From: Bifidobacterium asteroides | GTDB lineage: Bacteria; Actinomycetota; Actinomycetes; Actinomycetales; Bifidobacteriaceae | Direction: 5' to 3' | DNA: 64,000 nucleotides | Assembly: GCF_003202695.1 (NCBI RefSeq) | Contig: NZ_QGLL01000001.1 | Span: 372,001-436,000, forward strand | Part shown: piece by piece, positions 13,628-41,460 of the stretch | Position numbering within the stretch: position 1 is the stretch's first letter | Layout of the letters: every line of letters begins with the position of its first letter | Made by a program: the position numbers and the translations under genes | The notes under the pieces: model-generated | Database searches by the model: none | The model's input: the letters and a program-made list of their open reading frames with translations, nothing else | What the model was told of the DNA's origin: nothing

Positions 13628-13666
13628 GTACGACATACCTTACCGGTCCGAAGGAACTGGTGAAAG

Positions 13667-13739: not shown

Positions 13740-13859
13740 CTTGGCCTCCTGCCCGGACCCGCCGGATGAAGACAACATGCTACATCATACTGGATGCACG
13801 AGATAAAAACGCCTTGGCTTTCAGTCATGGGTGTACAAGCTTCTTGACACAATGAAAGC

Positions 13860-14984: not shown

Positions 14985-15112
14985 AAACAATCCAGCCGTC
15001 GAACAATATTGACCGATTTTGTTGTCTTCTGTCTGCTTTTGTGAGTAGTTTGGGGTACAGAACCGGGTGCTCGTCAGACCCGGCATCACGTCAGGAAAGG
15101 ACCCGAACAACC

Positions 15113-24280: not shown

Positions 24281-24467
24281 GCATATTCGGCTTGTCAGTT
24301 TGCGTTGTCTTTATTTTGCCGGTACAGTGATGATTAGGCAATGGGAATAGTGGCATGTCCAAAGGTTGACATATTGCCAACCCCCCTGAGTCGGGGAAGT
24401 GAACGGTTGGGGAGGCGAAGATGTGCCTGGCCATCCTGTGCCTTTTAATAAAGAAGGGAATGCGTGC
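24281..24467 (+). promoter_or_regulatory. Upstream region of the pilus cluster
   Basis: This 187-base leader holds TTGACA (24366-24371) without a good -10 at normal spacing. It also has a foldable segment CCAAC...GTTGG (24377-24410) containing a C6 run paired to GGGG. The promoter itself is not resolved by eye. The C6 run is too short to call phase variable. Confidence 0.35.
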
Positions 24468-26429
24468 ATGCACATGCAACGAGATAATGAAGGGATAAGG
24501 CTCCCTAAGCTTTTAGGCTTAGCGGTTGCCGGAGCTACGCTTCTGGCAGGCATGGTTGTCTTGCCAGTTACTCAGGCTTCAGCCGATGAAGACTATGGAT
24601 TCACTAGCGAGGACCAGTTTGTACCTGGCGCACTGGACGAAACCAAGGTCCCTCAGCTGACGGTCACCAAGTATCTGTCCATGACCGAGGGGTTTGCGCC
24701 CACCGGCTCTGCCGCTGATGGCAATAAGTTGAAGAATCTCACTCCTGCCCAGGGCATCCTCTTTAACGTTCAAGAGGTTCAGCCTAAGGGCGAAGGTAAG
24801 ACCTTGGCTGATATTAAGGCCGATGACCCAGAAACCTGGGAGGCCAAGAGCGGGACGACGAAATTTGCCGGTGTCACCAATGGTCAGGGTGTCATTGACA
24901 CCTGGTACCAAGGCGATGGAAATGGGAAGCCGACTAGTACAGTAGCTACCTTCCCTGCAGGCAAAGGTCATTACTATATTCTGAGCGAGAACACCGCCAA
25001 TTCTCCTGCTTTCGATTCCTCGAATCCGAATAAGCTTGATCAGAACAAGTACAAGACCGCCGCCAACTCCTTCTTTGGTCTGCCCTATGCAACCAATGGG
25101 ACGGATGCAAACCAGACTCGTGGTTTTGTCTACCATCTTCACCTGTATCCGAAGAACGTTACCAAGCAATCTTTCACTAAGACTGTGCAAAGCGTGCAGG
25201 ATGCTAACGGCAACCCGAAGAATCAAATCACAGCAGTTGCCGGTGATACGATCACGTACAAGCTGTCTCAGAAGCTCTACAACGAAAGCTCTCCCAAGCA
25301 GAATGACGGTAAGCTTGATGTCAAGGAGCTGAAAGGCGAGGGCAAGGATGTAAGGATCGCCGATCGTATGTCAAGCTCGTTGCAGGGTAATCCAGACTCC
25401 GTTCAGGCTGATATTCGGGATACCACCGGCAAGGTTGTGAACTTGACAGCTGATGATTTCGCTAAGGATGTCAATACTAATAAGAATCCTGCTCGTCTGA
25501 ACGACGCCACAAAGAATATGTTTGCTGATGTGCCTACGAGCGACGTGACTTACTGGGTATTCGACTTCTTTACCGCCAGTGGTGCTTCCAAGGCACAAGG
25601 CGTCGGAACATCGGAGATGGAGTTGGAGGTTACCTATACAGCAAAGGTGACCGCCAATGGCGATTCCACTGGCACCGGCGGCGTGGTTAACGACGCTGCA
25701 TCTGACTACAGCGAGAACAAGAATGATGACGGTACGCCCAAGGATCCTGAACAAGATCATACGAATGTGACCAATGCCGCAATCGCTTTTGGCTCTGTTC
25801 AGAATGCGAACACGAGTTTTGCAGCCCTGCCCGGTACTGAATACCGTCTGGTTCAGAATGCTGATTCGATAGACAAGTATCTGGCTTCGGATGGTCAGTT
25901 CTATGCTGAGGGTGCCGCCCCAGCAGGTGTCCAGCTTTACAAGGCTACGGCCAACAATAAAGGTCTGGTAACCTTTGCGGCTCTGCCTATCTTTGGAGAT
26001 GAAGCCAGGGCAGCTGACAAGACTGTCAAGAACGTCAACTGGCAGTTGGTTGAGACCAAGACTCCAGAGAATTGGCGCAACCCCGGCATCCCCTTCCAAA
26101 CGATCACTTTCGCGGATGCAGGTAAAACCGAGACGCAGATCGTTCAGGAGTATGGGCGCAACGCCACTATTCAGCCAGATTATACCAAGCTGAACTTTGG
26201 TAAGTTCGATGCTCCTGCTGAGCAAATACCCGCAGGGACTAAGATGACCTTCAACAACCAGGCTGTCTCCAAGTACTTGGCTCACTACAAGACGACCGAA
26301 GGCGACTCGCCATTGGCCCTGCCTCTGACTGGTGGCCGCGGCATTGTGCTGCTGCTGATTGTTGGCGCCCTGATCATGGGCGGAGCCCTGTATGCCCGGA
26401 GTCGGCGTAATAACGCTGCTAGGGCCTGA
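24468..26429 (+). CDS. Major pilin (SpaA/FimA-type backbone), LPLTG-anchored
   Basis: This 653-residue shaft protein has every sortase-pilin hallmark. It has a signal peptide ending near QASA|DEDY, the pilin motif with its lysine in HLHLYPKN (Lys229) for cross-linking to the next subunit, and an E-box WQLVETKTP (Glu529) for internal isopeptide bonds. The sorting signal is LPLTGG (about 618), followed by a hydrophobic helix and ARSRRNNAARA. Central SpaA-like domains span roughly 230-600. The ATG at 24468 is preceded by AAGAAGGG. The frame extends to 24399, but that lead breaks the signal peptide. It is cross-linked by the sortase two genes on. Composition is AT-richer than araA. Confidence 0.93.
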   Translation: MHMQRDNEGIRLPKLLGLAVAGATLLAGMVVLPVTQASADEDYGFTSEDQFVPGALDETKVPQLTVTKYLSMTEGFAPTGSAADGNKLKNLTPAQGILFNVQEVQPKGEGKTLADIKADDPETWEAKSGTTKFAGVTNGQGVIDTWYQGDGNGKPTSTVATFPAGKGHYYILSENTANSPAFDSSNPNKLDQNKYKTAANSFFGLPYATNGTDANQTRGFVYHLHLYPKNVTKQSFTKTVQSVQDANGNPKNQITAVAGDTITYKLSQKLYNESSPKQNDGKLDVKELKGEGKDVRIADRMSSSLQGNPDSVQADIRDTTGKVVNLTADDFAKDVNTNKNPARLNDATKNMFADVPTSDVTYWVFDFFTASGASKAQGVGTSEMELEVTYTAKVTANGDSTGTGGVVNDAASDYSENKNDDGTPKDPEQDHTNVTNAAIAFGSVQNANTSFAALPGTEYRLVQNADSIDKYLASDGQFYAEGAAPAGVQLYKATANNKGLVTFAALPIFGDEARAADKTVKNVNWQLVETKTPENWRNPGIPFQTITFADAGKTETQIVQEYGRNATIQPDYTKLNFGKFDAPAEQIPAGTKMTFNNQAVSKYLAHYKTTEGDSPLALPLTGGRGIVLLLIVGALIMGGALYARSRRNNAARA

Positions 26430-26468
26430 TGATCACGGTCACATCAAGTATCCTATGAGGTGACCAGG

Positions 26469-26507
26469 TGGCGGATGGTTCCTCCGTGAATCGTCCGCCA
26501 TTTTCTT
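26469..26507 (+). terminator. Terminator or attenuator between major and minor pilin
   Basis: The TGGCGGA/TCCGCCA stem is followed by TTTTCTT, 40 bases after the major pilin stop. In a pilus operon this would leave much more backbone than tip or minor pilin message. The partial read-through role is inferred. Confidence 0.65.
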
Positions 26508-26622
26508 ACGGACCGTGGATTTTGATCGGTTCGTACCTGTCGGAATGCTGGTCTGATTTCTTTTGGACTGGCGGATCCGACGTAACCACGTCGTCGAAAG
26601 GCGGCCTTGGAAGGGAAGGTTT

Positions 26623-27450
26623 ATGAAGGGAATTGCCTTGCCGAAATGCCTTGCTCACCGGGTCTTGCCCTGTTTGATTGCGGCTTTGGCCTGTTTAGGT
26701 CTGGCTGCTTTTGATGTGACGCCGGCAGCAGAGGCGGCGACGGTCAACCCGACCCTGACGGTGCAGCTCAAAAAAGGAAACTCGGTTCAAGGTGGTCAGA
26801 ATAGCATTCTGCCGAAGCCTCCTGTATCTGCAGGGGCAGGTTACGTCTTTCGTGCTCTGAAATTGGACGCTGCCACTCTCAAAAGCCGAGTGGAAGCGCT
26901 TGACAGCAATCCTGGTGTTGATAAGGCTCAAGCAGCCCTCAGCAAAGAGGTGGCTGCCAATCCGGATGCATTCAAAGACACGACACAGCCAGCTGAGTAT
27001 TATGGCGTCTCTGACCAGGACGGCACCATCACCAATGCGTCTGAAGCGAAAGCCCAAGGGGTTTGGCTCACCGGAGCACAGCTTGATCTTGACACGCCTA
27101 GCCTGGTTGGAGGAAGCCCCGCTGTTTTTGACGGCGACTACTTCCACGCCTCGTACTGGTTGGTCACTTTAGCGGCCGCACCCAAGGGAGAAAAGGTAAA
27201 GGTCGACCCTGTGGTCGTGCAGTTGCCGCTCTATCGGGAGCAGGGTGATGTCAATCCGCTCTATGATGTGACCATCAGCCCCAAACTCGTGACTGTGTCT
27301 CAAGAGGTCCCGATTGTGCGCCCCGAGCCGGGGAAATTGGCAGCCACTGGTGTATCCATGTTGGCGCCCGGCATTCTGCTCATGATCTTGGCCGCATTGG
27401 GCCTTTATCTGGCAGTGGTCGCCCGATCCTGGAACAGGGATGAGCGTTAG
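26623..27450 (+). CDS. Minor pilin or pilus-base surface protein with LAATG sorting motif
   Basis: This is a 275-residue exported protein with a signal peptide (about residues 1-39, ending near PAAEA|ATV), and a single beta-rich domain (VNPTLTVQLKKG...YVFRALKLD) like minor pilin N-domains, with VVQLPLYREQGDVNPLYDVTISPK resembling the pilin-motif region with a Lys at its end. The sorting signal LAATG (239-243) is followed by a hydrophobic helix and ARSWNRDER. The ATG at 26623 follows AAGGGAAGG. An earlier start at 26563 is unlikely. The LAATG form departs from LPXTG. Confidence 0.82.
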   Translation: MKGIALPKCLAHRVLPCLIAALACLGLAAFDVTPAAEAATVNPTLTVQLKKGNSVQGGQNSILPKPPVSAGAGYVFRALKLDAATLKSRVEALDSNPGVDKAQAALSKEVAANPDAFKDTTQPAEYYGVSDQDGTITNASEAKAQGVWLTGAQLDLDTPSLVGGSPAVFDGDYFHASYWLVTLAAAPKGEKVKVDPVVVQLPLYREQGDVNPLYDVTISPKLVTVSQEVPIVRPEPGKLAATGVSMLAPGILLMILAALGLYLAVVARSWNRDER

Positions 27451-27460
27451 TTATCTCCAT

Positions 27461-27486
27461 AGCAGTGCCGGAATGATGTCACTGCT
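27461..27486 (+). repeat. Intergenic hairpin between minor pilin and sortase
   Basis: The seven-base-pair stem AGCAGTG/CACTGCT has a 12-base loop and no T run. It may stabilise or attenuate the pilus message. Confidence 0.45.
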
Positions 27487-27608
27487 TGACATCGAAGGCA
27501 TCTATGTGGATGCATAAGGACCGACGACATCATACAGGTGCCGCCGGTTCTTGCATGTCAAGGACTATCAAACTGGACTATTTGAAAAGCAGAATGGTGA
27601 AGGACGCA

Positions 27609-29132
27609 ATGGACCAGGATTCTGACCCGGTGACTCTGGACACAACTCACGCTAATGACAAGGGCGATGGCGTCTCCAACTCTTTCATCCATGACGCATC
27701 CCTGGCGGGTGAGCCTGCAGAAAAAACGGACATACCGCCTGTCTATCCTCCCAATTCCGCTGTCGCGTCGACCGATGCCGCCCTGAAAGTCGATGAAGGT
27801 CATGGGCCAGAGCAATCGGGCGCCTCAGATGCAATAGGGACTCCGATGAGCGTTTCGGGTGAAGCACGAATGTCGGCTCCGATAATCGCTGCGGCTGAAC
27901 GTACCGACCAAGGCGAGGGTCAACAAGGAATTTCGGATCACGTGGCAGCGACCGCCTCCTCAAGTGCCAATGCCAGCCAGTCGGTGAAGACGAGCGGTCG
28001 AACGGCCTCCAAGTCAGGAAGGGGATTCGGGCTCCTGGAGACTTTAGGCTTCCTGATTGGTCTGGGAATCTTCCTTTACCCGTTGCTGGCTGCTTACGTC
28101 AATTACTCCGAAAATTCCGCCGCAGTGGACAACTATGATCAAATTGTGGCCGCACTGTCGCCAGCCCAACGCAGAGCCATGTGGCATGATGCCAAGCAGT
28201 ACGATGATGAACTGGGCAAGCCCACCCTGAGAGACCCGTTCAAGTACGCAGAAGTCAAAGAGCCACTAGGCCGCTACTACAAGATCCTCAATGTGGACGG
28301 CAAGGGGATGATGGCCTACGTGGATATACCCAAGATCAATGTCAAGCTACCCGTGCGTCACGGTACCAGCGATGAGGTGCTCAGGGACGGCACTGGTCAC
28401 ATCGCCACCACCCATGTACCTACAGACAACCGGACTATTCACGCTGTCATCACGGGGCACACTGGCGAGGTCGGCTACATGCTCTTCGACAACCTGACCC
28501 AGCTGCGCAAGGGGGATGTCTTCCAGATACGGGTGCTTACACGTCATATGAGCTATAAGGTCGACCAAATCAAGGTCATTAAGCCCACCGATGTCAGTGC
28601 ACTGCAGCCTGTTCAGAATTCCAACTATGTGACCCTGCTGACTTGCTACCCCTATGGCATCAATTCCCACCGCTTGATTGTCCGTGGGCACTACATTGGC
28701 GATGATGTGCCTCCAACCAGACCCAAGGGGGCGCCCCTCTACATGGTATGGGTGCTCCTGGCCCTTTTTGCAGCCTGCTTGTTGGGTTGGTACCTTCTTT
28801 CGCGTCGCCGACGCAACTGCCGCCGTGACCTGGAGCAGATGGAGCACCTGGGGTCTCGGGCGACAGCACCTGGGAGTGCGGGGGAGCCCTTGGCCACGAT
28901 TATGGCCAGTCATGAGTACGAGACTCGATCAGCAGCAACTCGCCGTCGTCGGTTGATCAAAACCCGGAAAACCTGCAGCGCCTTTATGTGGCTGCTGGCC
29001 CTGCTCGCCCTCTTCTTCGCCTGGGGCTCCGTCGGAATGATGATGCGGATCAGCCTCCTGCCCGTGTTTGACCTTGGTTACCATTGGTTCGACACCCATC
29101 TGCTGTACTTCTTCGGCATCACCAAATACTAG
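27609..29132 (+). CDS. srtC: Class C pilin-polymerising sortase
   Basis: This is a 507-residue membrane transpeptidase. Catalytic residues are His284 (ITGHTG), Cys346 (TLLTC) and Arg355 (SHRLIVRG). The His-Cys spacing of 62 and Cys-Arg spacing of 9 equal those of pneumococcal SrtC1. It has an unusually long cytoplasmic lead, about 130 polar residues, before the first membrane helix (LLETLGFLIGLGIFLYPLLAAYV), and a long tail with two more helices (VWVLLALFAACLLGW; MWLLALLALFFAW). GAAGGA precedes the ATG at 27609, and the ATG at 27594 is possible. It joins pilins encoded just upstream. Confidence 0.93.
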   Translation: MDQDSDPVTLDTTHANDKGDGVSNSFIHDASLAGEPAEKTDIPPVYPPNSAVASTDAALKVDEGHGPEQSGASDAIGTPMSVSGEARMSAPIIAAAERTDQGEGQQGISDHVAATASSSANASQSVKTSGRTASKSGRGFGLLETLGFLIGLGIFLYPLLAAYVNYSENSAAVDNYDQIVAALSPAQRRAMWHDAKQYDDELGKPTLRDPFKYAEVKEPLGRYYKILNVDGKGMMAYVDIPKINVKLPVRHGTSDEVLRDGTGHIATTHVPTDNRTIHAVITGHTGEVGYMLFDNLTQLRKGDVFQIRVLTRHMSYKVDQIKVIKPTDVSALQPVQNSNYVTLLTCYPYGINSHRLIVRGHYIGDDVPPTRPKGAPLYMVWVLLALFAACLLGWYLLSRRRRNCRRDLEQMEHLGSRATAPGSAGEPLATIMASHEYETRSAATRRRRLIKTRKTCSAFMWLLALLALFFAWGSVGMMMRISLLPVFDLGYHWFDTHLLYFFGITKY

Positions 29133-30164: not shown

Positions 30165-30962
30165 ATGACCGGTCCGAGACGCAGAAGATATCGGTATCGA
30201 GGCCGCGGCCGGTACGGTTCGTTCCGGCGAAATCCCGCCCCTGCCCGTTTCCGCCGCGAGTCGCTTACGGAACGGGTGCTGATCCTTCTGGTAGTGGCTG
30301 TGGTCCTAGGCATCTCCATCGGACTGATACTTCCTAGGGTCAACGGTGGTGTCGGGCGGCTGACCGGACGATATACGGCAACGGGCGATGCGGCTCAGAC
30401 TCTGCAGGGCCTGACGGTGAACGATCAAAACCGACCCGGCCGCCAGTACCGGCGTGAGGCCTTCGGCTTCAAGGAGACTGATGAGGACGGAAACGGCTGC
30501 AACGTACGCGAGGATGTGCTGACCCGCGACCTGACTGACCTGCGTACCACGACTCCCGGCGGTTGCAAGGTAGCCAGCGGTCGTCTGCAGGACCCCTACA
30601 CCGGACGGACCATAGAATTCGTCAGAGGGCCGAAAACCAGCTCTGCCGTGCAGATTGACCATGTGGTCGCCTTGGAGAACGCCTGGCGATCAGGAGCCAG
30701 CAAGTGGGATACGGCCCATCGCTACCGTTTTGGCAACGACCCCTATAATCTTCTTGCTGTGGACGGTCCGGCCAACCAGGCCAAGGGGAGCGCCTCGGCC
30801 GATTACTGGCTGCCGGAGAACAAGGACTATCAATGCTCCTATGTGGCTCGTCAGATAGCAGTCAAGGACAAGTACTCCCTGAGCGTCACCAGCTCGGAAA
30901 AACAGGCTATGCTGGCCGTTCTTCATACCTGCCCGGGCCAGCCGCTCCCGCAGGATCGCTGA
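30165..30962 (+). CDS. Membrane-anchored or secreted HNH nuclease (DUF1524 type)
   Basis: This is a 265-residue protein with a very basic lead (RRRRYRYRGRGR), one membrane helix (about residues 44-64), then an extracellular nuclease domain. Landmarks are DEDGNGCNVREDVLTRDL, a paired cysteine in GGCKVASGRLQDPYTGRTIEFVRG, the His-Asn-type core VQIDHVVALENAW...RYRFGNDPYNLLAVDGPANQAKG and a final Cys pair (YQCSYVARQ...LHTCPG). The domain is common in secreted actinobacterial proteins. Its substrate is probably extracellular DNA. The role is inferred. Confidence 0.85.
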   Translation: MTGPRRRRYRYRGRGRYGSFRRNPAPARFRRESLTERVLILLVVAVVLGISIGLILPRVNGGVGRLTGRYTATGDAAQTLQGLTVNDQNRPGRQYRREAFGFKETDEDGNGCNVREDVLTRDLTDLRTTTPGGCKVASGRLQDPYTGRTIEFVRGPKTSSAVQIDHVVALENAWRSGASKWDTAHRYRFGNDPYNLLAVDGPANQAKGSASADYWLPENKDYQCSYVARQIAVKDKYSLSVTSSEKQAMLAVLHTCPGQPLPQDR

Positions 30963-31069
30963 GCGCCGGCCTTGCGCTGATAAGCGGTAACAGATTGCCA
31001 TGTGCGGGTTTATTTGCATAAGAAGAGCTTCATGGCCTGACTGTTTACACTGAGCCGACCTTTACGGTG

Positions 31070-31078
31070 TGATACTAT
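31070..31078 (+). promoter_or_regulatory. Extended -10 promoter of the GH43 gene
   Basis: TGATACTAT is an extended -10 element with no clear -35. The palindromic operator starts 10 bases later, the same geometry as at the second promoter of this locus. Confidence 0.45.
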
Positions 31079-31088
31079 TATTAAGGTG

Positions 31089-31106
31089 TGGTACACAGTT
31101 GTACCA
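31089..31106 (+). promoter_or_regulatory. Operator copy 1 of the galactan locus
   Basis: TGGTACA-CAGT-TGTACCA is an inverted repeat with seven-base arms around a four-base centre. The same 19 bases, centre included, recur at 33202-33220. It covers the expected transcription start, so a bound protein would block initiation. Confidence 0.8.
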
Positions 31107-31110
31107 ACTA

Positions 31111-31140
31111 CATGGAAACCAGTCAGTCTCTGGTTCCATG
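31111..31140 (+). promoter_or_regulatory. Stem-loop in the GH43 leader mRNA
   Basis: CATGGAAACCAG pairs with CTGGTTCCATG through 11 base pairs with one bulged A and a seven-base loop, between operator copy 1 and the ribosome binding site. There is no T run, so it is not a plain terminator. An RNA-stability role is possible. Confidence 0.5.
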
Positions 31141-31171
31141 ACCGCGACCATAAGCAACAGGGAGGTTGGCT

Positions 31172-33166
31172 ATGAGCGACAATATCGGCTCACATATACG
31201 AAAGAATGGACACTACATACGGGACCGCATGCTGGAATGGCGGAAAATAGCCATTCTGTTTGTCGCTCTGGCTACGATTATGGGTTTGTCCCTCGGAGCG
31301 CCAAAGGCGGTTGCCGCGCAGGAAACGGGACAAAAGTCCGATTCTGTAGGCGGGAACGGGCTGATCGCCAATGATCGTTTCTGGGATGACGCCGACGGTA
31401 ACCCAATGTATATGCAGGGCGGGGGGATTTTCGATTTTCCGGATCCTGCCACGGGGAAGGTCTCTCATTTTTGGTATGGTGTCCACTTCTCCCAGGCTGA
31501 AACTTATCGTCAGAACCCTACCCATGCGCTCACGGGCAATGATTTCGTCTCAGTGGATGTATACAAATCCGGCAATCTGACCGATTGGCGGTATCAAGGC
31601 GTGGCGTTGGACAGGGCGCAGGCGGATGCATTCTCCAGTGACTTCGGTGGTCGCCATGCAGGTTGGGTGTGCAGAATGGGGGTTGCGTACGTTCCTGAGT
31701 TGCACACCTATGCCATGCTTATCCAGCATGAGATGCCCACGGATGCTACCGGTCGCAAGTTTGATAAAAAAGTGCTGATCGCTACGGCCGATTCGCCTAC
31801 TGGTCCGTTCAAGGCCCAGAGGCGCATCGACATGCGCGATTACGGGCTGGGCACCAGCAATACCGGGGACCAGAGCGTCTTTCAGGATGAGGACGGCACG
31901 GGTTATCTGATTTATTCCTATGGAAGTGGCCGGAGCAGTGTCTGGGCAGCCAGAATAGGCGCCAGAGACGGTCGAGTGGATCTGCTGGAACCCACCAAGC
32001 TCTACCAGGGCTTCGGGCGCGAAGGCAATGCGCTTTTCAAGCATGCTGGCCGGTATTATCTGGCTGGTTCCGATCTGTTTGGGTGGGATGCTTCCCGAAT
32101 CCATTTTCAGGTAGCGGATCATATTTTCGGCCCATATCAGCCCGTCAATCGGACTGTGATCATGGATGGCAGCCAAACCGATTTCGGACACATCACTCAG
32201 ACCGGTTTTTACTACACCTTGCATGGCAGCCGGGCAGAGACCGTCATCCACTGCGGCGATCGATGGGCTGATTTTGCGGGCAATGGGCTTGGCTACAACC
32301 AGTGGAATCCGCTGAGTTTCGATGATTCAGGCACGCCTCGCTTCAATTCGATGAGCCGGTGGAAGTTGGATGCAGGCACTGGCCTTTGGTCGATTGACGA
32401 TGCCAATGATTACGTGCTCAACGGCTCCTTCGAAGCGGACAGGGTTGCGGTAGGCGAGCAGGGGTATAAGGATAAGGACGGTAAGTTGATTGACGATATC
32501 GCCGGATGGCGACGGGTCAATCCAGATGCTGTGACCAATGTAGCCGATGGCTATGGACGAGTGGGCGACTTTAACCTGCGGTTCGCCCCAGGACGATCCC
32601 GCAGCGCTTCAATCGTTCAGGATTTGGGTGCGGCGGGACACGTTCCCCTGCACGCGGGCCGCTTCCTTCTTAAACTCTCCTATGCGAACCCCAAAGGCAT
32701 GGATCGGGCCAGGATTGCAATTGAATCAAGCGGGAAAACCTCGGAAATCGATCTGGCAGCCTCCACTGGAGCAGCCTGGAGGCAGGCCTCCTTGCCAGTT
32801 GATCTGACTGGTGGGCAGACCAGGATCACTATTGTGGCCTCTGGCAGTTCGGGCCAGACCCTGGATGTGGATGACGTGTCTCTGACAGGTGTGCCAGAAA
32901 AGGAGAATGAAACCGACGATGTGATTGATCAGGGCGGGAATGCGCTTCCGACGGGTCATGAAGGGTCCGCGTCCGGTTCTGCAGGGTCAGATAAATCCCT
33001 GCCAGCTCATTCCGTCGGCCGGAGCAAGGATCCATGCTCCGACTTAGCTGATACGGGCATCGATATAGGCCTCACTCCCGTTTTTGTGGCTGGCTGTGTG
33101 GCTGCGGGCCTTCTGTTGATGGTTGTGGCCAGGTACCGTCGGCGGCGTTTTGAGGCGCTGAATTGA
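31172..33166 (+). CDS. Cell-wall-anchored GH43-type glycosidase, probably exo-beta-1,3-galactanase-like
   Basis: This 664-residue exported enzyme has a long signal peptide (about residues 1-49, ending near AVA|AQE) and a five-bladed propeller of GH43 style over about 60-410 (MYMQGGGIFDFPD, DQSVFQDEDGTGYLIYSYG, GREGNALFKHAGRYYLAGSDLFGWD, FGHITQTGFYYTLHG). A beta-sandwich carbohydrate-binding-like module covers about 415-580 (NGSFEADRVAV...LDVDDVSLTG), with an acidic linker and the LADTG signal (625-629), hydrophobic helix and RYRRRRFEALN. The pattern is closest to GH43 subfamily 24, some members of which lack the usual base, but the subfamily is my inference. The start follows GGGAGG. A sugar ABC system and GH42 follow. 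Confidence 0.8.
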   Translation: MSDNIGSHIRKNGHYIRDRMLEWRKIAILFVALATIMGLSLGAPKAVAAQETGQKSDSVGGNGLIANDRFWDDADGNPMYMQGGGIFDFPDPATGKVSHFWYGVHFSQAETYRQNPTHALTGNDFVSVDVYKSGNLTDWRYQGVALDRAQADAFSSDFGGRHAGWVCRMGVAYVPELHTYAMLIQHEMPTDATGRKFDKKVLIATADSPTGPFKAQRRIDMRDYGLGTSNTGDQSVFQDEDGTGYLIYSYGSGRSSVWAARIGARDGRVDLLEPTKLYQGFGREGNALFKHAGRYYLAGSDLFGWDASRIHFQVADHIFGPYQPVNRTVIMDGSQTDFGHITQTGFYYTLHGSRAETVIHCGDRWADFAGNGLGYNQWNPLSFDDSGTPRFNSMSRWKLDAGTGLWSIDDANDYVLNGSFEADRVAVGEQGYKDKDGKLIDDIAGWRRVNPDAVTNVADGYGRVGDFNLRFAPGRSRSASIVQDLGAAGHVPLHAGRFLLKLSYANPKGMDRARIAIESSGKTSEIDLAASTGAAWRQASLPVDLTGGQTRITIVASGSSGQTLDVDDVSLTGVPEKENETDDVIDQGGNALPTGHEGSASGSAGSDKSLPAHSVGRSKDPCSDLADTGIDIGLTPVFVAGCVAAGLLLMVVARYRRRRFEALN

Positions 33167-33190
33167 CAATCCAGAGCTACAGATTATACT
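33163..33190 (+). promoter_or_regulatory. Promoter of the sugar-binding protein gene
   Basis: TTGACA (33163-33168), 16-base spacer and TATACT (33185-33190) is the best sigma-70-type promoter in the window. The -35 overlaps the GH43 stop codon. Confidence 0.75.
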
Positions 33191-33200
33191 TAACAAGACA

Positions 33201-33220
33201 TTGGTACACAGTTGTACCAA
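33201..33220 (+). promoter_or_regulatory. Operator copy 2 of the galactan locus
   Basis: TTGGTACA-CAGT-TGTACCAA has eight-base arms (nine when the flanking A/T is counted) around the same CAGT centre as copy 1. It begins 10 bases after the -10, over the expected start of transcription. Confidence 0.85.
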
Positions 33221-33286
33221 TAATTGGAAGGAGTAGGCGTCAAAACCTTATCAAGGACGTTTTCTAACCAATATGAAAGGTTCATC

Positions 33287-34612
33287 ATGTATTCTGCACG
33301 AAAAATCCTGACCATGGGCGTCACCATGGTTGCCCTGGCCTCGTTCGCTGCCTGTGGAAGCAGCGGGTCTGGATCAGCATCGAAGCCAGCGGACACTAGC
33401 AAAGCCTCAGGGCGCATAGTCTTTTGGGGCTGGGGCAATGGCATCAAGGAAACCATTGATGCTTTCGAAAAGGCCAATCCCGGCATCACCGTGAAGTACA
33501 ACAACACCGGCACTGCCGGTGACACTCAGGTGGCCTTGTCCAACGCAGTAGCTGCAGGCAAGGGCATTCCTGACGTCACCATGCTGGAGGATCCTACTGT
33601 CCAGCAGTTTGCGATTGAAGACAACCTGGAGGATCTATCGGGGTATGGGGCTGACAAGTTCGCTGACGATTTCACCCCGGGGCCCTGGAACAAGGTCCAG
33701 TATGACGGAAAACCCTATGCGCTGCCCATTGATGCAGGCCCCGAGGTTTTCTTCTACAACAAGGCGGTCTTCGACAAGGCCGGCATTCCCGAGCCCCCTA
33801 AGACCTGGGATGAGTACTATCAGGATGCTAAGAAGATTCGAGCAGTAGGTTCCTACATTACCAACAACGCCGGCGACAAGAATGCCTATCAGCCTTTCAC
33901 CGCGCAGGCCTGGCAAGCTGGGGCGCACCCTTGGAAGGTCGATGGCGACAAGATCACCATCAACATGACCAAGGATCCCGGCATGAAGCGGTATATCGAT
34001 TTCCAGCAAAAGCTGATCGACGAAGACCTGCTCGATACCAAGACCGCCAACTGGTCCGATGACTGGAATAGGGCGCTTAACGATGGTTCGGTGGCCTCGC
34101 TGACCATTGGCGCCTGGATGCCCACCAATCTGGAGTCTGGTGCGCCCGACCAGAAAGGCAACTGGAGGGTTGCGCCTCTGCCGCAGTGGAAAGAGGGGGA
34201 CAGCGTGTCTGCGGAAGATGGCGGTTCGGCTCTTGTCGTGCCTAAGAAGGCCAAGAACAAGGCGGCAGCTTGGAAGTTCGCCGAATATCTGACGCATGGC
34301 GAAGGAGCTCAGGTCATGGCTGACCAAGGCAGCTTCCCCTCCCTGAAACGTATCCTGAGTTCCGCTGATTTCACCAGCAAGAAGAATGAGTACTTCGGAG
34401 GCCAGGAGGTCAACAAGGTGCTGACCGAGGCAGCCAACCTCAAAGTCTCCAAGTTCCAGTACCTGCCTTACAACCCCTTCGCACAGTCAACCTATGGGGA
34501 TTCCATCGGCAAGGCCTACATGAAGAAGACCAGTCTGGAGAAGGCCTTCGAGGACTATCAGCAGAAGTTGGTGGATCACGGCAACCAGCAGGGGTATCAG
34601 GTCAACAAGTGA
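33287..34612 (+). CDS. Sugar ABC transporter substrate-binding lipoprotein
   Basis: A 441-residue binding protein of the extracellular family 1 type. The lipobox LASFAAC lies at about residues 13-20, after the signal peptide, and is followed by a Ser/Gly linker and the binding domain (RIVFWGWGNGIKETIDAFEKANPGITVKYNN; GKPYALPIDAGPEVFFYNKAVFDKAGIPEPPKTWDEYYQDAKK). The ATG at 33287 with AAAGG before it gives a proper lipoprotein start. It is the first gene of an ABC operon. No ATPase gene is present, so it likely uses a shared MsmK-type ATPase encoded elsewhere. Confidence 0.94.
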   Translation: MYSARKILTMGVTMVALASFAACGSSGSGSASKPADTSKASGRIVFWGWGNGIKETIDAFEKANPGITVKYNNTGTAGDTQVALSNAVAAGKGIPDVTMLEDPTVQQFAIEDNLEDLSGYGADKFADDFTPGPWNKVQYDGKPYALPIDAGPEVFFYNKAVFDKAGIPEPPKTWDEYYQDAKKIRAVGSYITNNAGDKNAYQPFTAQAWQAGAHPWKVDGDKITINMTKDPGMKRYIDFQQKLIDEDLLDTKTANWSDDWNRALNDGSVASLTIGAWMPTNLESGAPDQKGNWRVAPLPQWKEGDSVSAEDGGSALVVPKKAKNKAAAWKFAEYLTHGEGAQVMADQGSFPSLKRILSSADFTSKKNEYFGGQEVNKVLTEAANLKVSKFQYLPYNPFAQSTYGDSIGKAYMKKTSLEKAFEDYQQKLVDHGNQQGYQVNK

Positions 34613-34622
34613 GTGATGACTC

Positions 34623-34644
34623 AGGCGGCTGGTAGCAGCCGCCT
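34623..34644 (+). promoter_or_regulatory. Intercistronic hairpin after the binding-protein gene
   Basis: A perfect eight-base-pair stem AGGCGGCT/AGCCGCCT with a six-base loop lies between the binding protein and the first permease. Hairpins here usually protect the upstream message so the binding protein is made in excess (as between malE and malF). Confidence 0.6.
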
Positions 34645-34676
34645 TCGAACAATGACAGGAAAGAAGGACAGGCATC

Positions 34677-35639
34677 ATGAGTGAAGCCGAAGGTTCGACT
34701 GCGCGGATTTTGGCCCCCGCGCGGGATCATGGCCCTGGCGAAGCCAGCGGGAGGCACACCGGGGAGCGGCCTCACAGAAGCGACTGGCGGGGATGGAAAT
34801 TCATGGGACCCTTTGTCCTGGTCTTCGTGTTCGTTTTCGTCCTGCCGGTGCTCTATGCCATCTATCTGAGCCTGTACGAGAAGCGCATGATCGGAGGGAA
34901 CGTCTTTGTGGGCCTGGCCAATTACGTCAGGCTGATCAAGGACGGGCAGTTCTGGTCATCAGTTGGCCGTGTGGCGATCTTCACTGTGGTCCAGGTGCCC
35001 ATCATGCTCTTTCTGGCGGCATTGATGGCGCTGGCGCTGGATTCACTCAAGCTGCACGGCACGCGCTTCTTCAGAATCAGCACTTTCCTGCCCTATGCGG
35101 TGCCTGCCGTAGTGGCGGCTCTGATGTGGGGATTCATATACGGAACCAAGTACGGAATGGTAGGTTCCCTGAATCAATGGCTGGGCACGCATATCGACGT
35201 TCTGCAGCCCAGTGTGCTTCTGGCCGCCATAGGCAACATCAACACCTGGGAGTTCACGGGCTACAACATGCTGATTTTCTATTCCTCGCTGTCGACTGTG
35301 CCGCACTCGCTCTATGAGGCAGCGGCTATAGACGGGGCTTCGGAGTGGCAGATCGTGCGCAATATCAAGATCCCCGAGCTCAAGAGCTCCCTGGTTATCA
35401 CGGTGATCTTCAGCATCATTGGCAGCTTCCAGCTCTTCAATGAGCCCTCGGTGCTGCAGACCATGGTTCCAGGCAACGCCATCACCACCTATTACACCCC
35501 CAACATGTATGCCTACAACCTGAGCTTCATGGGAGGCCAGAGCAACTACGCGGCAGCCTTGGCCATCGTCATGGCCATCATAACCATGGTCGCCGCCTAT
35601 GCCGTCCAGCTCAGGGGAATGAAGGAGCAGATGCAATGA
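34677..35639 (+). CDS. Sugar ABC transporter permease, MalF type
   Basis: This 320-residue protein has an N-terminal cytoplasmic lead of about 40 residues and six membrane helices (first FMGPFVLVFVFVFVLPVLYAIYLSL). The EAA loop that docks the ATPase reads LYEAAAIDGASEWQIVRNIKIPELKSSLVITVI. It forms the import channel with the next permease, whose start overlaps its stop by four bases. Confidence 0.95.
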   Translation: MSEAEGSTARILAPARDHGPGEASGRHTGERPHRSDWRGWKFMGPFVLVFVFVFVLPVLYAIYLSLYEKRMIGGNVFVGLANYVRLIKDGQFWSSVGRVAIFTVVQVPIMLFLAALMALALDSLKLHGTRFFRISTFLPYAVPAVVAALMWGFIYGTKYGMVGSLNQWLGTHIDVLQPSVLLAAIGNINTWEFTGYNMLIFYSSLSTVPHSLYEAAAIDGASEWQIVRNIKIPELKSSLVITVIFSIIGSFQLFNEPSVLQTMVPGNAITTYYTPNMYAYNLSFMGGQSNYAAALAIVMAIITMVAAYAVQLRGMKEQMQ

Positions 35640-36604
35640 GCATGGTTGATACGAGGACTATCGACGGGGTCAAAGCTGAACGCATGCGTGCCCGGCGCGT
35701 AGCACGAGATGAGCGTGCGGAACGTCGGAGGGCAGCCCGAACAGGGTTTTCCAATCCGAACAATCCGCGGCGCAGCTGGCTGTTGACCCTGGTTGCTGGG
35801 ATCTTCGCGCTCTACTGCTTGTTTCCTCTGATCTGGCTGGTCATCAATGCCACCAAGACCCAGTCGGATTTCATTGGCACCTTCGGTCTGGCCTTTGGAC
35901 ACAAGTTCGCCCTCTGGGACAATCTGCGCGAGGTATTCACCTATGAGGGCGGTATCTTCGGGCGCTGGCTGCTCAACACCCTGCTCTACGTAGTAGTGGG
36001 AGCCGGTGGCGCCACCTTGCTGGCCGTGCTGGGCGGATATGCCTTGGCCAAGTTCCGCTTCCCGGGCCGCCGCCTTGTCTTCGCAGTGGTCATCGGGGCC
36101 ATCAGCGTCCCGGGCATCGCTTTGGCCGTGCCTCAGTTCCTGCTCTTCGCCAAGATCGGACTGACCGATACGCCCTGGGCTATGATCATCCCCAGTCTGA
36201 TCTCGCCCTTCGGCCTGTACCTGATGTGGATCTTCTCCGACCAGGCGGTGCCTACCGAACTACTGGAGGCAGCTCGGGTCGACGGGGCCGGGGAGTTCCG
36301 CACTTTCTGGCAGGTCAGCCTGCCTCTGCTGGCCCCTGGGATCGTGACCACAGCGCTTTTCACTATTGTGGCCACTTGGAACAACTACTTCCTGCCATTG
36401 ATCATGCTCAAGGATTCCAGTTGGTACCCGCTGACGATCGGGCTCAACAATTGGAAGGACCAGGCATCGACAGCCGGTGCCCATGCCATTCAGAACCTGG
36501 TGGTGACGGGCAGCCTGGTCACCATCATCCCCATCGTCGTCGCCTTCCTGTTGCTGCAGAAATACTGGCAGTCCGGCTTGGCCGCCGGTGCTGTCAAGGA
36601 GTAG
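35636..36604 (+). CDS. Sugar ABC transporter permease, MalG type
   Basis: This 322-residue protein has a basic lead (residues 1-45, Arg-rich), six membrane helices (LLTLVAGIFALYCLFPLIWLVI first) and the EAA loop ELLEAARVDGAGEFRTFWQVSLPLLAPG. The GYALAKFRFPGRRLVF segment is typical of MalG permeases. It is translationally coupled to the MalF-type gene, and the GH42 gene follows 25 bases later. Confidence 0.95.
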   Translation: MSMVDTRTIDGVKAERMRARRVARDERAERRRAARTGFSNPNNPRRSWLLTLVAGIFALYCLFPLIWLVINATKTQSDFIGTFGLAFGHKFALWDNLREVFTYEGGIFGRWLLNTLLYVVVGAGGATLLAVLGGYALAKFRFPGRRLVFAVVIGAISVPGIALAVPQFLLFAKIGLTDTPWAMIIPSLISPFGLYLMWIFSDQAVPTELLEAARVDGAGEFRTFWQVSLPLLAPGIVTTALFTIVATWNNYFLPLIMLKDSSWYPLTIGLNNWKDQASTAGAHAIQNLVVTGSLVTIIPIVVAFLLLQKYWQSGLAAGAVKE

Positions 36605-36629
36605 CGGGAACTCGCAGACGGGATCAAGC

Positions 36630-38780
36630 ATGAGCAGAACAGACCATCATGACCGTCGACAGCCCCAGCCCTATAGACCTTACCGCTGGCCGAAGGGCCC
36701 CGATGGTCATTCGAAGGGAATCTGGTTCGGGGGGGATTACAACCCAGATCAATGGCCGGAGCAGGTATGGGCCGAAGATGTTGCACTGATGAGGCAGGCT
36801 GGCGTCACCATGGTGACCCTGGGCATTTTCTCATGGGCGCGTCTGGAGCCCAGCGACGGAGTCTGGGAGTTTGATTGGCTGGATCGGGTGGTGGCCTTGC
36901 TGGGCGAAGCCGGTATCGCCGTAGACATGGCTTCGGCCACGGCCACGGCCCCATACTGGCTCTACCAGGCGCATCCTGAGGTGTTGCCCGTGGAGGCGGA
37001 CGGGACCCTGGTCCATCCGGGCGCACGGCAGTCCTGGAGGCCCACCTCGCCGGTTTTTCGGCGCTATGCCCTTCGACTTTGCAAGGCCATGGGTGAGCAC
37101 TTCCGCGACAATCCGACGGTGGTCGCCTGGCATGTGGGCAATGAGTATGGATGGAACAATGCAGCCGACTACTCGCAGGATGCTTTGAAGGCCTTCCGAG
37201 GCTGGTGCCGCAGGCGCTACGGCAGCATCGAGGAGCTTAACCGAGCCTGGGGCAATGATTTCTGGTCCCAGAGGCTGCAGGATTTTGATCAGGTACCCCT
37301 GCCTGAACATGCTGGCGTGCGTGACGCCTTTATCAATCCGGCACTGCGCCTGGACTTCCGAAGATTCTGTTCTGATGCGCTGATGGATTTTTTCTGTGCC
37401 GAACGTGATCAACTGCAGGAGCTTACCCCCGATAAACCGCTAACGACCAACTTCATGGTTTCGACGGACCAATGCGTCCTGGACTATGAGCGCTGGTCGC
37501 ACCAGGTCGATTTCGTGGCCAACGACCATTATTTCGCCCAGGGACCCGGACATCTGGATGAGCTGCTCTGCTCGGACTCCCTGGTGGATGCCTATGCTCA
37601 GCGTCATCCCTGGTGTCTGATGGAGCATTCCACATCCGCAGTCAATTGGCGCATCTTCAACGCGTCCAAGCGCCAAGGCGAACTGATCCGGGACGCCCTG
37701 GCCCATGTGGCTATGGGAGCGGATTCGGTCAACTTCTTCCAATGGCGGCAGTCCGCCTTCGGAGCAGAGGCCTTCCACTCGGCCATGGTCCCCCATGCAG
37801 GGCCGGATTCGGCAATTTATGAACAGGTTGCCGATTTGGGATGCATTTTGCGAAGGCTCTCCCAGAGCGGACTGGCCGGGACCCGGTTGGAACCCTCGAC
37901 TATGGTTCTGCTCTTTGATGCCGACTGCCAGTGGTCCATGGCGGATTCGACTCTGCCTGATCCCTCTATGGATCATTGGCAGCAGGTCTATACCTGGTAT
38001 CAGGCTCTGCTTGACGTCGGACTCAGGGCGGATGTCGCGCCCCTGAAGGGGCAGTGGGAGAGTTACGACGTGGTGGTGTTGCCGGCCCTGATTCTGCTGG
38101 ATCAGCAGCAAGCCGCCCGTCTGCGCGACTATGTGAGCAAGGGCGGTCGGCTGGTGGTGGACTTCGCCAGTGGCCTTATGGATGACCATATGCACGTCGG
38201 CTTGGGCGGATATCCTGGGGCTTTGCGGGATCTGACAGGTGTCGCTTCCCAGGAGCTGATCGCCTTGGGCACGAGCGACCAAGGCGGTGGATCCATCCTG
38301 GTATCAGAGGGCATTGAGGGCAATATATGGGTCAATGAGCCCTTGAGCCTAGAGGATTCGGTAAGGGTGCTGGCTCGCTACCAGGGCCGTCGTTCCTATG
38401 ACCTCGACATGGCTGGGGAGCCTGCGGTGACCATTCATGGATATGGTCAGGGCCGCGTCCTCTATCTGGGCACGGGCTTTGCCAAGGAATCGCTGGTTTC
38501 GGTGATCAGCCGAATCTTCCCTCCTGATTTTCTCGCCGACGCCTCAGAAGCAGGGCTGCATAACGGTCGTGACGGCGATCCGCGGTTGGTGCACCTGATC
38601 AGATCCGGGCCACAGGGTCGGTATCATTTCTATTTCAACCGGGAGTCGACGGTTATCAGAGATGTGGCCACCTCGGGCGAGGCCTTGGTGGTACAACGAG
38701 CGACCCGGTGCGGGGGGGATGGTTTATCCGACAATCGCTACACTATAGGAGTGCATGGTGTGGTGATCACCCGTCAGTAA
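36630..38780 (+). CDS. GH42 beta-galactosidase
   Basis: A 716-residue cytoplasmic enzyme with no signal peptide. The TIM barrel opens with IWFGGDYNPDQWPEQVWAEDV. The acid/base is Glu172 in HVGNEYGWNN and the nucleophile is Glu332 in LMEHSTSAVNW. A Rossmann-like beta-galactosidase trimerisation domain (about 400-600, YDVVVLPALILLD...GRLVVDFASG) and a small beta domain follow. It probably releases galactose from imported beta-galacto-oligosaccharides, in keeping with the transporter ahead of it. The in-frame start at 36588 would overlap the permease. G7 tracts lie at 36729-36735 and 38712-38718. Confidence 0.94.
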   Translation: MSRTDHHDRRQPQPYRPYRWPKGPDGHSKGIWFGGDYNPDQWPEQVWAEDVALMRQAGVTMVTLGIFSWARLEPSDGVWEFDWLDRVVALLGEAGIAVDMASATATAPYWLYQAHPEVLPVEADGTLVHPGARQSWRPTSPVFRRYALRLCKAMGEHFRDNPTVVAWHVGNEYGWNNAADYSQDALKAFRGWCRRRYGSIEELNRAWGNDFWSQRLQDFDQVPLPEHAGVRDAFINPALRLDFRRFCSDALMDFFCAERDQLQELTPDKPLTTNFMVSTDQCVLDYERWSHQVDFVANDHYFAQGPGHLDELLCSDSLVDAYAQRHPWCLMEHSTSAVNWRIFNASKRQGELIRDALAHVAMGADSVNFFQWRQSAFGAEAFHSAMVPHAGPDSAIYEQVADLGCILRRLSQSGLAGTRLEPSTMVLLFDADCQWSMADSTLPDPSMDHWQQVYTWYQALLDVGLRADVAPLKGQWESYDVVVLPALILLDQQQAARLRDYVSKGGRLVVDFASGLMDDHMHVGLGGYPGALRDLTGVASQELIALGTSDQGGGSILVSEGIEGNIWVNEPLSLEDSVRVLARYQGRRSYDLDMAGEPAVTIHGYGQGRVLYLGTGFAKESLVSVISRIFPPDFLADASEAGLHNGRDGDPRLVHLIRSGPQGRYHFYFNRESTVIRDVATSGEALVVQRATRCGGDGLSDNRYTIGVHGVVITRQ

Positions 38781-38829
38781 ATGTGATCGCCATAGTGCCT
38801 TGGAGGTTGTTCCATTCTAAGGAGTGTCT

Positions 38830-39888
38830 ATGGCAGCGGATGAAGGACGTCCAGGCAAACGGATCACCCTGCGCGAGGTGGCCAGCAGGGCGGGTGTCTC
38901 GCTGAAGACAGCCTCCAATGTAATCAACGGCAATGGCCGTATGTCCAATGCGACCCGTGCGCGTGTGCAGCAGGTCATTGACGAATCGGGGTACCAGGTC
39001 AATGCCGCGGCCCGTAATCTGCACCGCAACAAAACCGGTATTATTACGCTGGCTGTGCCTTCACTGACTCCTCCTTATCTGGCCGAATTGGCTAATAGGG
39101 TCATCGACAGCGCTCGTCTGCGGGACTATGCGGTATATGTCAGTACCTATGCCGAGGGGTCTGCCAAGGGGGCGCATGAGATTCTGGCCTCCTTTAACAG
39201 CACTATCAGCGACGGAATAATTCTTTCCATGTCGGAGCTTGAGCGATTCGCCGTGGAGGACCTGGATGTGCGTTACCCCTTGGTATGCGTGGGCGCACGG
39301 ACTACCCATGGGGTGGCGGATCACGTCATGGTCGATGATGCCGAAGCGGCTCGGATGGCCGCAGAGTATTTGTTTGATCGGTCGGTGCGCTCGCTGGCGG
39401 TCATCGGTCTGCATGCGCCGCTTGACTATGATCGGTTAACGGCTGCGATCGAAGGCAATGCCGAGCTCAGGATGAAGGGAGTGCTCAAGGCGATCCGTGC
39501 CAGGGGGTTGCAGCTGGATGATCGGCTTCTTGGCGTAACCGGTTATGACTGGACCTTGGGCAGCGGGTACCTGACCATGCAGAGGATATTAGAGACGGGT
39601 GCGCCCTTCGATGGGGTGATAGCCCTCAATGATCAGCTGGCTATCGGTGCACTGTCAGCCCTGACTGCTTACGGCAGAGCCGTACCCGACCAGGTCCAGA
39701 TCATCGGGTTCGACAACATCGAGGAGTCGGCTTATCTGCAAACCCCGCTTACTACTATGGATTCCTGCTTGCGGTGGATCTCACGGACCTGTGTCGACCG
39801 CGTCCTGGGACGTATCGGAGGCAGAGCTACGGCTCCCCAGGATCTGGTCATCGGATCGCGAGTCATAGCCCGCAGAACCACCCGGTGA
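38830..39888 (+). CDS. LacI-family regulator with atypical recognition helix
   Basis: This 352-residue protein has a DNA-binding head (ITLREVASRAGVSLKTASNVINGNGRMSNATRARVQQVIDESGYQVN) that reads LKTASNVI where most LacI proteins have TVSRVI. The effector domain ends with QIIGFDNIEESAYLQTPLTTMDS. AAGGAG sits before the ATG at 38830, and a GTG at 38824 overlaps that site. As last gene of the galactan locus it is the likely reader of the TGGTACA-N4-TGTACCA operators. This pairing is inferred from position. Confidence 0.88.
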   Translation: MAADEGRPGKRITLREVASRAGVSLKTASNVINGNGRMSNATRARVQQVIDESGYQVNAAARNLHRNKTGIITLAVPSLTPPYLAELANRVIDSARLRDYAVYVSTYAEGSAKGAHEILASFNSTISDGIILSMSELERFAVEDLDVRYPLVCVGARTTHGVADHVMVDDAEAARMAAEYLFDRSVRSLAVIGLHAPLDYDRLTAAIEGNAELRMKGVLKAIRARGLQLDDRLLGVTGYDWTLGSGYLTMQRILETGAPFDGVIALNDQLAIGALSALTAYGRAVPDQVQIIGFDNIEESAYLQTPLTTMDSCLRWISRTCVDRVLGRIGGRATAPQDLVIGSRVIARRTTR

Positions 39889-41460
39889 TCAGTCCTGGGC
39901 CTTGGAGTCGGCTGAGGAAGTGATAGCGACAGGGGAGTCGGTGTGGATGATGTGCATGTGGCGCAGGAGCATGCGGGTCATCTGACGACCGGAGCCAGCG
40001 CCGTTTCCGCGAACGCCGAAATAGACCAGCAGGACCATGCCCAAGCAGATCAGTGCCGATATGCGCAGGGCCCACTGCACGCCGAAGATATTGGCTGCAA
40101 TCTGGGTGGAGTGGCCGCCGCCCAAGGCGCTGTGGCGCAGGGTGGTGATGGTCTCCATGAGGATGACCAGTATGGGCGCTCCGACAGCTCCGGCGATCTG
40201 ACGGGCTGTGTTGGTGACGGCCGAACCGGCTGAAACATCCTTGGGAGCCAGGTTGTTCAGGGACCAGGTAGTCAAGGGCATCAGGGTGAAGCCCATGCCG
40301 ATCTGGCGGACAAACTGGCAGATGGAGACCAGGCCGATCCACGTGTTGGCACCAATCATGCTCATCGCGATGGTGCCCACCAGCAGGACCGAGCAGCCGG
40401 TCATGGCCACGGGCCGAGCGCCCCAACGGTCCAGCAGACGGCCGCCGAAGAACTGGGCGATGGCGGTGCCGATGGCCCCAGGCAGCATGACCAGGCCGCT
40501 CATGGTGGCCGAGAAGCCGCGGTCCGTCTGGATGTACATGGGCAGGATGACGGTGACCGAGCTGAAGGCGAAGAAGGACATGGAGGCGATGATGGTGCCC
40601 ACGGTGAAGTTCTTGATTCGCAGCACATGCAGGTCCAGCAGGGGTTTGTCGTGGTGGAGCTGGCGAAGAACGAACCAGATGATCCCGATCAGGCCGACCA
40701 GCATAAAGGGCCAGGTCATGAAGGAAGTGATGGGGAAGTTCTCAATGTTGGTAAAGCCGAACATAAGGCCGCCGAATCCGAAGATGGACAGGGCTACTGA
40801 GAAGAAGTCCGCCTTGACGCTGGTGTCGCGCTGACCGAAGTTGTGCAGGCCGAAGATGGACAGGAGCAGCGCTACCGCTCCGCAAATGCTCAGCGTCAGG
40901 AAGATGGAGCGCCAGCCGTTGGCATCGGTCTGCCAGCCGCCCAGGGTGGGGCCGATGGCCGGGGCCACGCTCATGGCCAGGCCCACGGTGCCCATGGCCA
41001 TGCCGCGCTTGGCCAGAGGATAGATGGAGAAGACGGTGATCTGCAGGACGGGCCACATGGTCCCGGTGCCCACGGCTTCCAGGACGCGGCCCAGCAGGAC
41101 CAGGGCGAAGGTCTGCGACTGCCAGCTCAGCAGGGACCCCAGGGTGAAGACGGCCATGGAGGTGATGACGATTTGCCGAGTGGAGAAGCGCTTGGTCAGA
41201 AAGCCGGTCAAGGGCACCATGACGCCCATGACCAGCTGGAATACCGAGGTCAGCCACTGACCGGCGGTCAGGGTGATGTGGAACTCGTCCACAATGGTAG
41301 GCAGGGCCGAAGCCAGCTGCAGCTGGGTGAAGTTGCCCAGGAAGGTGATGACGGTCAGGATGGCCAGCGAAAGGAAGGCTTCATGGGTGAGCTTTCCGTT
41401 GACGAAGGCTCCATCCTTGCTGAGGGTCCGCCCTTGCTTGGCGAGCTCCTGCTTCCTCAT
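39889..41460 (-). CDS. MFS drug-type exporter, DHA2 (14-helix) family
   Basis: A 523-residue transporter with about 14 membrane helices. Motifs are LASALPTIVDEFHITLTAGQWLTSVFQLVMGVMVPLTGFLTKRFSTRQ (motif A region) and LLGRVLEAVGTGTMWPVLQ (motif C region, Gly-rich). It probably exports toxic compounds by proton antiport; substrate is unknown. AAGGAAG precedes the ATG at 41460. The frame opens at 41499 without a ribosome site. Its stop abuts the convergent LacI gene's stop with no base between. Confidence 0.9.
   Translation of the reverse strand: MRKQELAKQGRTLSKDGAFVNGKLTHEAFLSLAILTVITFLGNFTQLQLASALPTIVDEFHITLTAGQWLTSVFQLVMGVMVPLTGFLTKRFSTRQIVITSMAVFTLGSLLSWQSQTFALVLLGRVLEAVGTGTMWPVLQITVFSIYPLAKRGMAMGTVGLAMSVAPAIGPTLGGWQTDANGWRSIFLTLSICGAVALLLSIFGLHNFGQRDTSVKADFFSVALSIFGFGGLMFGFTNIENFPITSFMTWPFMLVGLIGIIWFVLRQLHHDKPLLDLHVLRIKNFTVGTIIASMSFFAFSSVTVILPMYIQTDRGFSATMSGLVMLPGAIGTAIAQFFGGRLLDRWGARPVAMTGCSVLLVGTIAMSMIGANTWIGLVSICQFVRQIGMGFTLMPLTTWSLNNLAPKDVSAGSAVTNTARQIAGAVGAPILVILMETITTLRHSALGGGHSTQIAANIFGVQWALRISALICLGMVLLVYFGVRGNGAGSGRQMTRMLLRHMHIIHTDSPVAITSSADSKAQD

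Follow-up and report, generated by a model that had tools for sequence, protein, structure and literature searches.

The window, that is, the whole stretch of 64,000 nucleotides of the Bifidobacterium asteroides genome that was analysed, contains a galactan locus with the genes described below on the forward strand. The first gene (31172–33166) encodes a GH43 family protein (Pfam GH43, 6.9e-15), a probable exo-beta-1,3-galactanase judging from its relatives in the PDB: 6eug (1e-15), 5flw, annotated as 'exo-beta-1,3-galactanase' (2.1e-13), and 3vsf (2.8e-13). The PDB table gives different names to 6eug and 3vsf, which are presumably of the same exo-beta-1,3-galactanase type. The protein has a signal-like N terminus and, at its C terminus, LADTG together with a hydrophobic stretch; we take these to be a signal peptide and a sorting motif, which suggests that the enzyme is probably located on the cell surface.

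An operon of genes downstream codes for the solute-binding protein of a sugar ABC transporter (33287–34612; Pfam SBP_bac_1, 8.4e-38), two permeases (34677–35639 and 35636–36604; both Pfam BPD_transp_1) and a GH42 beta-galactosidase (36588–38780, with the start codon provisional; Pfam GH42, 5.6e-138, and beta-galactosidases among its PDB relatives), in the positions of galC, galD, galE and galG, respectively. The last gene of the operon (38830–39888) encodes a LacI-family repressor of the GosR/GalR type, in which a LacI helix-turn-helix domain (PF00356, LacI, 3.5e-15) is combined with a periplasmic-binding-like sensor domain (PF13377, Peripla_BP_3, 7.6e-23). The region directly ahead of the GH43 promoter codes for a protein with a GmrSD C-terminal domain (30165–30962), and a pilus-type locus with a SpaH/EbpB-family pilin and a sortase-domain protein is located at 24399–29132.

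Promoters and palindromic sites of the locus

Two identical copies of the 18-base palindrome TGGTACACAGTTGTACCA are present on the forward strand, one ahead of the GH43 gene (31089–31106, operator A) and the other ahead of the operon from the solute-binding protein to LacI (33202–33219, operator B). Each is followed by an A, giving the 19 bases that the first-pass annotation placed at 31089–31107 and 33202–33220, exactly where they were found. The spacing of 10 to 11 bases past a -10 element proposed there also holds, with gaps of 10 bases for A and 11 for B.

The GH43 promoter has an extended -10 element, TGATACTAT (31070–31078), and the TGNTANNAT of this region is conserved in all six aligned promoter-A sequences. 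The search for a -35 element of promoter A yielded no good one, the best being TTTACA followed after 18 bases by a poor TGTGAT, so it was taken as an extended -10 promoter. The promoter of the ABC operon (33163–33190) comprises TTGACA (33163–33168), a spacer of 16 bases and TATACT (33185–33190), matching the consensus at 11 of 12 positions; its -35 element overlaps the GH43 stop codon and is retained in 7/7 aligned promoter-B sequences. The transcription start sites of both promoters are predicted ones.

In alignments drawn from near relatives, 16 of the 18 columns of operator A are invariant among six sequences, two of them nearly alike, vs. 73 of the 179 remaining columns, and the operator is the sole run of ten invariant columns. 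For operator B the figures are 17/18 among seven sequences vs. 106/170; the contrast is weaker here, since two further ten-column invariant runs occur around the -35 element and in the leader.

The palindrome is rare outside the locus. With up to three mismatches, TGGTACANNNNTGTACCA has five matches in the window, two perfect and three at three mismatches, while the shuffled window gives 1.09 on average. In the B. asteroides genome (1,933,421 bases, up to two mismatches) two places match perfectly, none at one mismatch and two at two, vs. three places for a backwards control, so that operators A and B alone exceed the genome background. Copies scattered at unrelated genes, an outcome that the first-pass annotation had named as speaking against its reading, were not seen in this search, which found two places at 0–1 mismatches.

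Just past operator A the GH43 leader may form an RNA hairpin (31112–31139, forward strand; stem 31112–31117 with 31134–31139). It is predicted in all five sequences folded, and two of its six pairs are changed on both sides, as counted over just five distinct rows. Rfam has no match at gathering score within 30900–40000 of the window. In loci L052 (1445–1456) and L061 (2225–2239) of two close relatives (G010 and B. sp. B4142), 12 or 15 consecutive C residues, possibly a length-variable tract near the promoter, lie some 45 bases ahead of the GH43 operator; the tract is absent from the window.

Co-occurrence of the site and the LacI orthologue

The nearest orthologues of the LacI protein (94–96% identity) are found in Bifidobacterium mizhiense, B. 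apousia, B. sp. B4142 and B. mellis, a bee-gut group. Among 27 genomes of the genus, seven, including the host, have an orthologue of 94–100%, and all seven carry both sites, about 2.1 kb apart and ahead of lacI. That site A precedes GH43 was established from gene matches for the window and four named loci, and for the two other close genomes from a leader that is similar or identical. An eighth genome of the genus, with a 62% orthologue, has a site pair with one and two arm mismatches. The 18-mer with 0–2 mismatches occurs in 8/27 genomes, namely the seven with close orthologues and G023; at up to three mismatches both the 18-mer and its backwards control hit 16/27, and therefore only matches with 0–2 mismatches were used.

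At the level of the family, 78 of 189 Bifidobacteriaceae genomes have an orthologue at E ≤1e-80. The exact motif TGRTACA-N4-TGTAYCA is present in 58/189 genomes (backwards control, 4/189): in 56 of the 78 with the orthologue vs. 2 of the 111 without it (G090 and G149). This overlap was counted by reading both tables and per genome rather than by distance to lacI; in G029 the motif and the lacI match sit on different contigs. Within the fetched lacI stretch of the 22 orthologue-bearing genomes lacking the exact motif, a one-mismatch site was found in 13, a two-mismatch site only in 2 and no site in 7, three of which have a contig end close upstream.

A detailed scan covered 36 Bifidobacteriaceae loci and 11 loci with orthologues of 48–54%, out of 78 loci. 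Sites were detected in 32 of the 36, L082 having a two-mismatch site only, and the four site-free loci (L063, L067, L072 and L074) extend for less than 3 kb upstream of lacI. The sites comprise 53 with no arm mismatch, 17 with one and 6 with two, vs. shuffle means of 0, 0.1 and 2.85 (two-base blocks being kept in the shuffle, not the full dinucleotide content). Relatives of 35–40%, more distant loci and the partial matches L124, L125, L126 and L130 were left to an arm scan of all 78 loci, which revealed no site in these four.

Other Bifidobacteriaceae loci with near-full site matches have orthologues of 59–65%, while Demequina, Rathayibacter and other Microbacteriaceae have orthologues of 48–54%. 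In all 11 loci of the latter group the operator arms, with the usual R/Y variation, occur once beside lacI, 3' of its end by up to about 100 bases in 10 loci and by about 500 in L100. A GH43 relative (35–38%) comes next in 10/11; in L095 it rests on tblastn, as the ORF scanned over the GH43 stretch is in another frame and had no family. The same locus has an esterase-like Pfam domain just below the cut-off, and genes close by encode a sugar-binding protein and one of the GH2 family. The common arms in these differing neighbourhoods are the best evidence that a LacI protein of the 38830–39888 type reads the site. Its recognition helix is SLKTASN, and KTASN is invariant in 35/35 aligned LacI proteins (that of the window, 24 from Bifidobacteriaceae and 10 of the 11 from the 48–54% group, L101 not being taken). 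The proposal of the first-pass annotation that one repressor serves both GH43 and the ABC/GH42 genes is thus supported by comparative evidence, because the motif tracks orthologues of the adjacent LacI protein.

In B. sp. UW_MP_BIF19_1 a GH43+GH53 protein has its own one-mismatch site, which, like the GH43 relatives of the 10 Microbacteriaceae/Demequina loci, ties GH43 to the LacI regulator. Locus L090 encodes a GH43 + GH53 protein of 1454 aa downstream of lacI (11326–15690) with the operator-like TGATACTCCGGTGTATCA ahead of it. No galactanase was found beside lacI in L069 (B. saguini), where of two ORFs scanned one had no family and the other a phosphotransferase-like domain. Near LacI relatives of 37–39%, the palindromes TAGTACACCGGTGTACCT (L113, 6056) and TAGTACACCGGTGTACTA (L117, 6994) perhaps represent a sister operator with TAGTACA arms.

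Tandem operators and the centre of the site

Among the 28 non-bee bifidobacterial loci with sites, 24 have a tandem pair of sites 24–31 bases apart, the exceptions being L082, L086, L089 and L090 (4/28). Unlike these 24 loci, the window has a single operator per promoter. A survey of 54 loci gave 27 pairs with distinct surroundings. A T directly follows the upstream site, Op1, in 27/27 pairs; read together with the right arm, this T gives TATCAT (18), TATCGT (4), TACCAT (4) or TACTAT (1). TTGACA with at most one mismatch stands exactly 16 bases ahead of this hexamer in 18/27; the other nine pairs lack a fitting TTGACA, and some of them precede GH42. Position 16 is T in 22/27 Op1 vs. 6/27 Op2 sites (Fisher p 2.7e-5, the species not being independent). 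The downstream site, Op2, starts 5–12 bases past the -10 element. From this arrangement Op1 seems to be nested in the promoter, with its right arm doubling as the -10 element, and Op2 to lie just downstream.

With starts 10 and 11 bases past the -10 elements, the window sites are of the Op2 type, which explains the matched positions noted in the first-pass annotation. No relic of Op1 was found within 60 bases of the window operators, the best other matches having 6/14 arm mismatches. In some loci TGTGAGCGCTCACA (L077, near 94) or close forms of it (L081, near 3575; L106, near 3758) are located ahead of the tandem promoter. The printed AraQ consensus is TGTGAGCGCTCACA, and these AraQ-like sites maybe provide a second level of control.

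The first-pass annotation also stressed that the centre, although not needed for symmetry, is kept. This is true of near relatives, where ACACAGTTGT, the central ten bases, does not vary among six A-promoters and seven B-promoters, while family-wide only C-N-G-N is retained. The latter is seen in 64/65 Bifidobacteriaceae sites (C at position 8 in 64/65, G at position 10 in 65/65), which are upper figures because the orientation was chosen to favour these two bases; a random centre would pass both at about 1 site in 8, by estimate. The central pair of the 65 sites is AG in 36, CG in 14, GG in 11 and TG in 4. It is AG in the window sites, not the CpG usual for the LacI family, and CG in 11/11 Microbacteriaceae/Demequina sites.

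The centre is likely kept because the LacI hinge reads it. The hinge Ala is kept, and the hinge Leu is present in 33 of the 35 aligned proteins, Met replacing it in two. Residue 65 of the window protein, which we matched to the published hinge numbering via an alignment with PurR, is the next after the hinge Leu; it is His, Asn or Ser in bifidobacterial proteins vs. Thr or Met in the other aligned ones, and is only a lead, since the split occurs once in the tree. In the available part of Camas 2010, the central CG is related to hinge residue 54, which is Leu in most cases, and the second base from the centre to residue 55. In its even 18-base palindrome, hinge Ala and mostly hinge Leu, the system resembles operators of the CcpA cre and PurR types, but unlike their central CpG the centre is AG, GG or TG in 51/65 Bifidobacteriaceae sites. 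Such a centre is uncommon but known, as 49 regulators with another central pair and 29 with a degenerate one are given in the accessible text of Ravcheev 2014. Absence of the central CpG is shared with the EbgR-like LacI regulators, which, as far as the text of Francke 2008 was available, lack the hinge leucine, whereas the window protein has it.

A wider scenario, put forward tentatively and with somewhat less than even confidence, is that the Bifidobacteriaceae repressor gave up the symmetric CpG centre, mostly kept the hinge Leu and came to use a directional C-N-G-N core, with promoters arranged as a matched pair of Op1 (in the spacer and -10 element) and Op2 (past the start). The group of the window would then have lost Op1 at the ABC promoter, leaving one Op2-type site on its own at that promoter and another at the recruited GH43 gene, so that a double lock became a single block. 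The change of residue 65 may underlie that of the centre.

Probable regulation of galactan utilization

Overall, both palindromes are very probably operators of the LacI protein encoded at 38830–39888, which is predicted to act as a local repressor, of the GosR/GalR type, for galactan/galacto-oligosaccharide genes. Since they lie within the predicted transcribed leader, they might instead form 5' hairpins of both mRNAs, serving stability or protection rather than binding a regulator as DNA. Both do fold near the predicted leader start, the leaders folding better than their shuffles (z -2.31 and -2.41), and positions 3 and 16 covary in near-relative promoter A (A-U in three rows, G-C in two). 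Over 83 distinct exact sites, however, these positions are GC in 35, GT in 22, AT in 14 and AC in 12 (the strand is not uniform, so GT and AC are swappable). Op1, moreover, appears to lie inside the promoter and outside the transcript, TTGACA fitting in 18/27 pairs, although not in 9/27. The same arms surround a different centre in Microbacteriaceae/Demequina, and the presence of sites tracks a LacI protein, all of which makes hairpins highly improbable as the function of the palindromes.

That the sites belong to a different regulator in the cell, e.g., a LacI paralogue, is very unlikely as well. The host genome does encode a further LacI-family protein, of 35% identity, passing E 1e-40; yet the sites follow the orthologue group of the 38830–39888 protein despite differing neighbours, and the 20 loci with relatives of 35–40% show a weak match in three (L113, L114 and L117) and full arms in none. 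Repression is predicted from the position of the sites. Activation, by itself or together with repression, is a most improbable mode of action: a site just past the -10 element, in one case that of a near-consensus promoter, suits repression, and LacI-type factors of bifidobacteria are described, in the literature excerpts available, as typically repressors.

The locus, read as that of a LacI repressor with two operators, is a further case of the known GosR/GalR type of galactan regulon, which the first-pass annotation did not name. According to the parts of these sources available, GosR (GalR), on which experiments were done in B. breve, is listed as the regulator for galactan (Khoroshkin 2016), the galactan cluster Bbr_0417–0422 of this species is induced by galacto-oligosaccharide (O'Connell Motherway 2013; PMC3815386), and this type of cluster is regulated by GalR (review PMC4908950). 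Excerpts of the literature also apply the name gosR to Bbr_0526, later lntR, a source of confusion. The gene order of the window, from the solute-binding protein through two permeases and GH42 to LacI, is identical to that of galCDEGR in B. breve, where GalR reportedly binds and controls the galC and galA promoters. The second operator-bearing promoter of the window likewise drives a galactanase-like gene, GH43, assigned its function by similarity. A separate promoter for the galactanase gene and control of the LacI type are thus common to the window and the GalR/GosR regulon of B. breve and B. longum, but the galactanase-like GH43 gene is upstream, whereas theirs is the endogalactanase gene galA located after galR.

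The RegPrecise GosR site of B. longum is printed in the part of PMC8012564 available as TTGGTCAACCGGTGTATCAA. Read as TGGTCAA-CCGG-TGTATCA, it has the same register as the window site; the right arm fits and the left differs at 2/7 positions, so that 2/14 arm positions differ. This printed site occurs, with up to one mismatch, in 0/189 family genomes, and its regulator is therefore not directly matchable to the 38830–39888 protein. Among the matches listed for TGGTACA in the Bifidobacterium literature, none concerns the regulator of the window by title or start of abstract.

In the mechanism proposed, without inducer a repressor dimer would sit on the DNA just past the -10 element at both promoters and would stop RNA polymerase from leaving or passing. 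A galactan-derived oligosaccharide entering the cell would bind the repressor and open both promoters, and GH43, the ABC importer, GH42 and the repressor itself would then be produced together. GH43 at the surface would free galactose-containing sugars, to be imported by the ABC system and split by GH42. Binding, downstream-block repression, the inducer and the enzyme location are predictions.

The comparative evidence is strong and gives the LacI regulator a likely target on the DNA. The site series, with a CpG centre in Microbacteriaceae/Demequina, an asymmetric centre in bifidobacteria and a near-identical recognition helix, offers a natural test of how the LacI hinge reads the operator centre. 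Otherwise this is an ordinary local sugar regulon; since GH43 and the importer are predicted to be co-induced, the group of the host probably uses beta-1,3-linked galactan.
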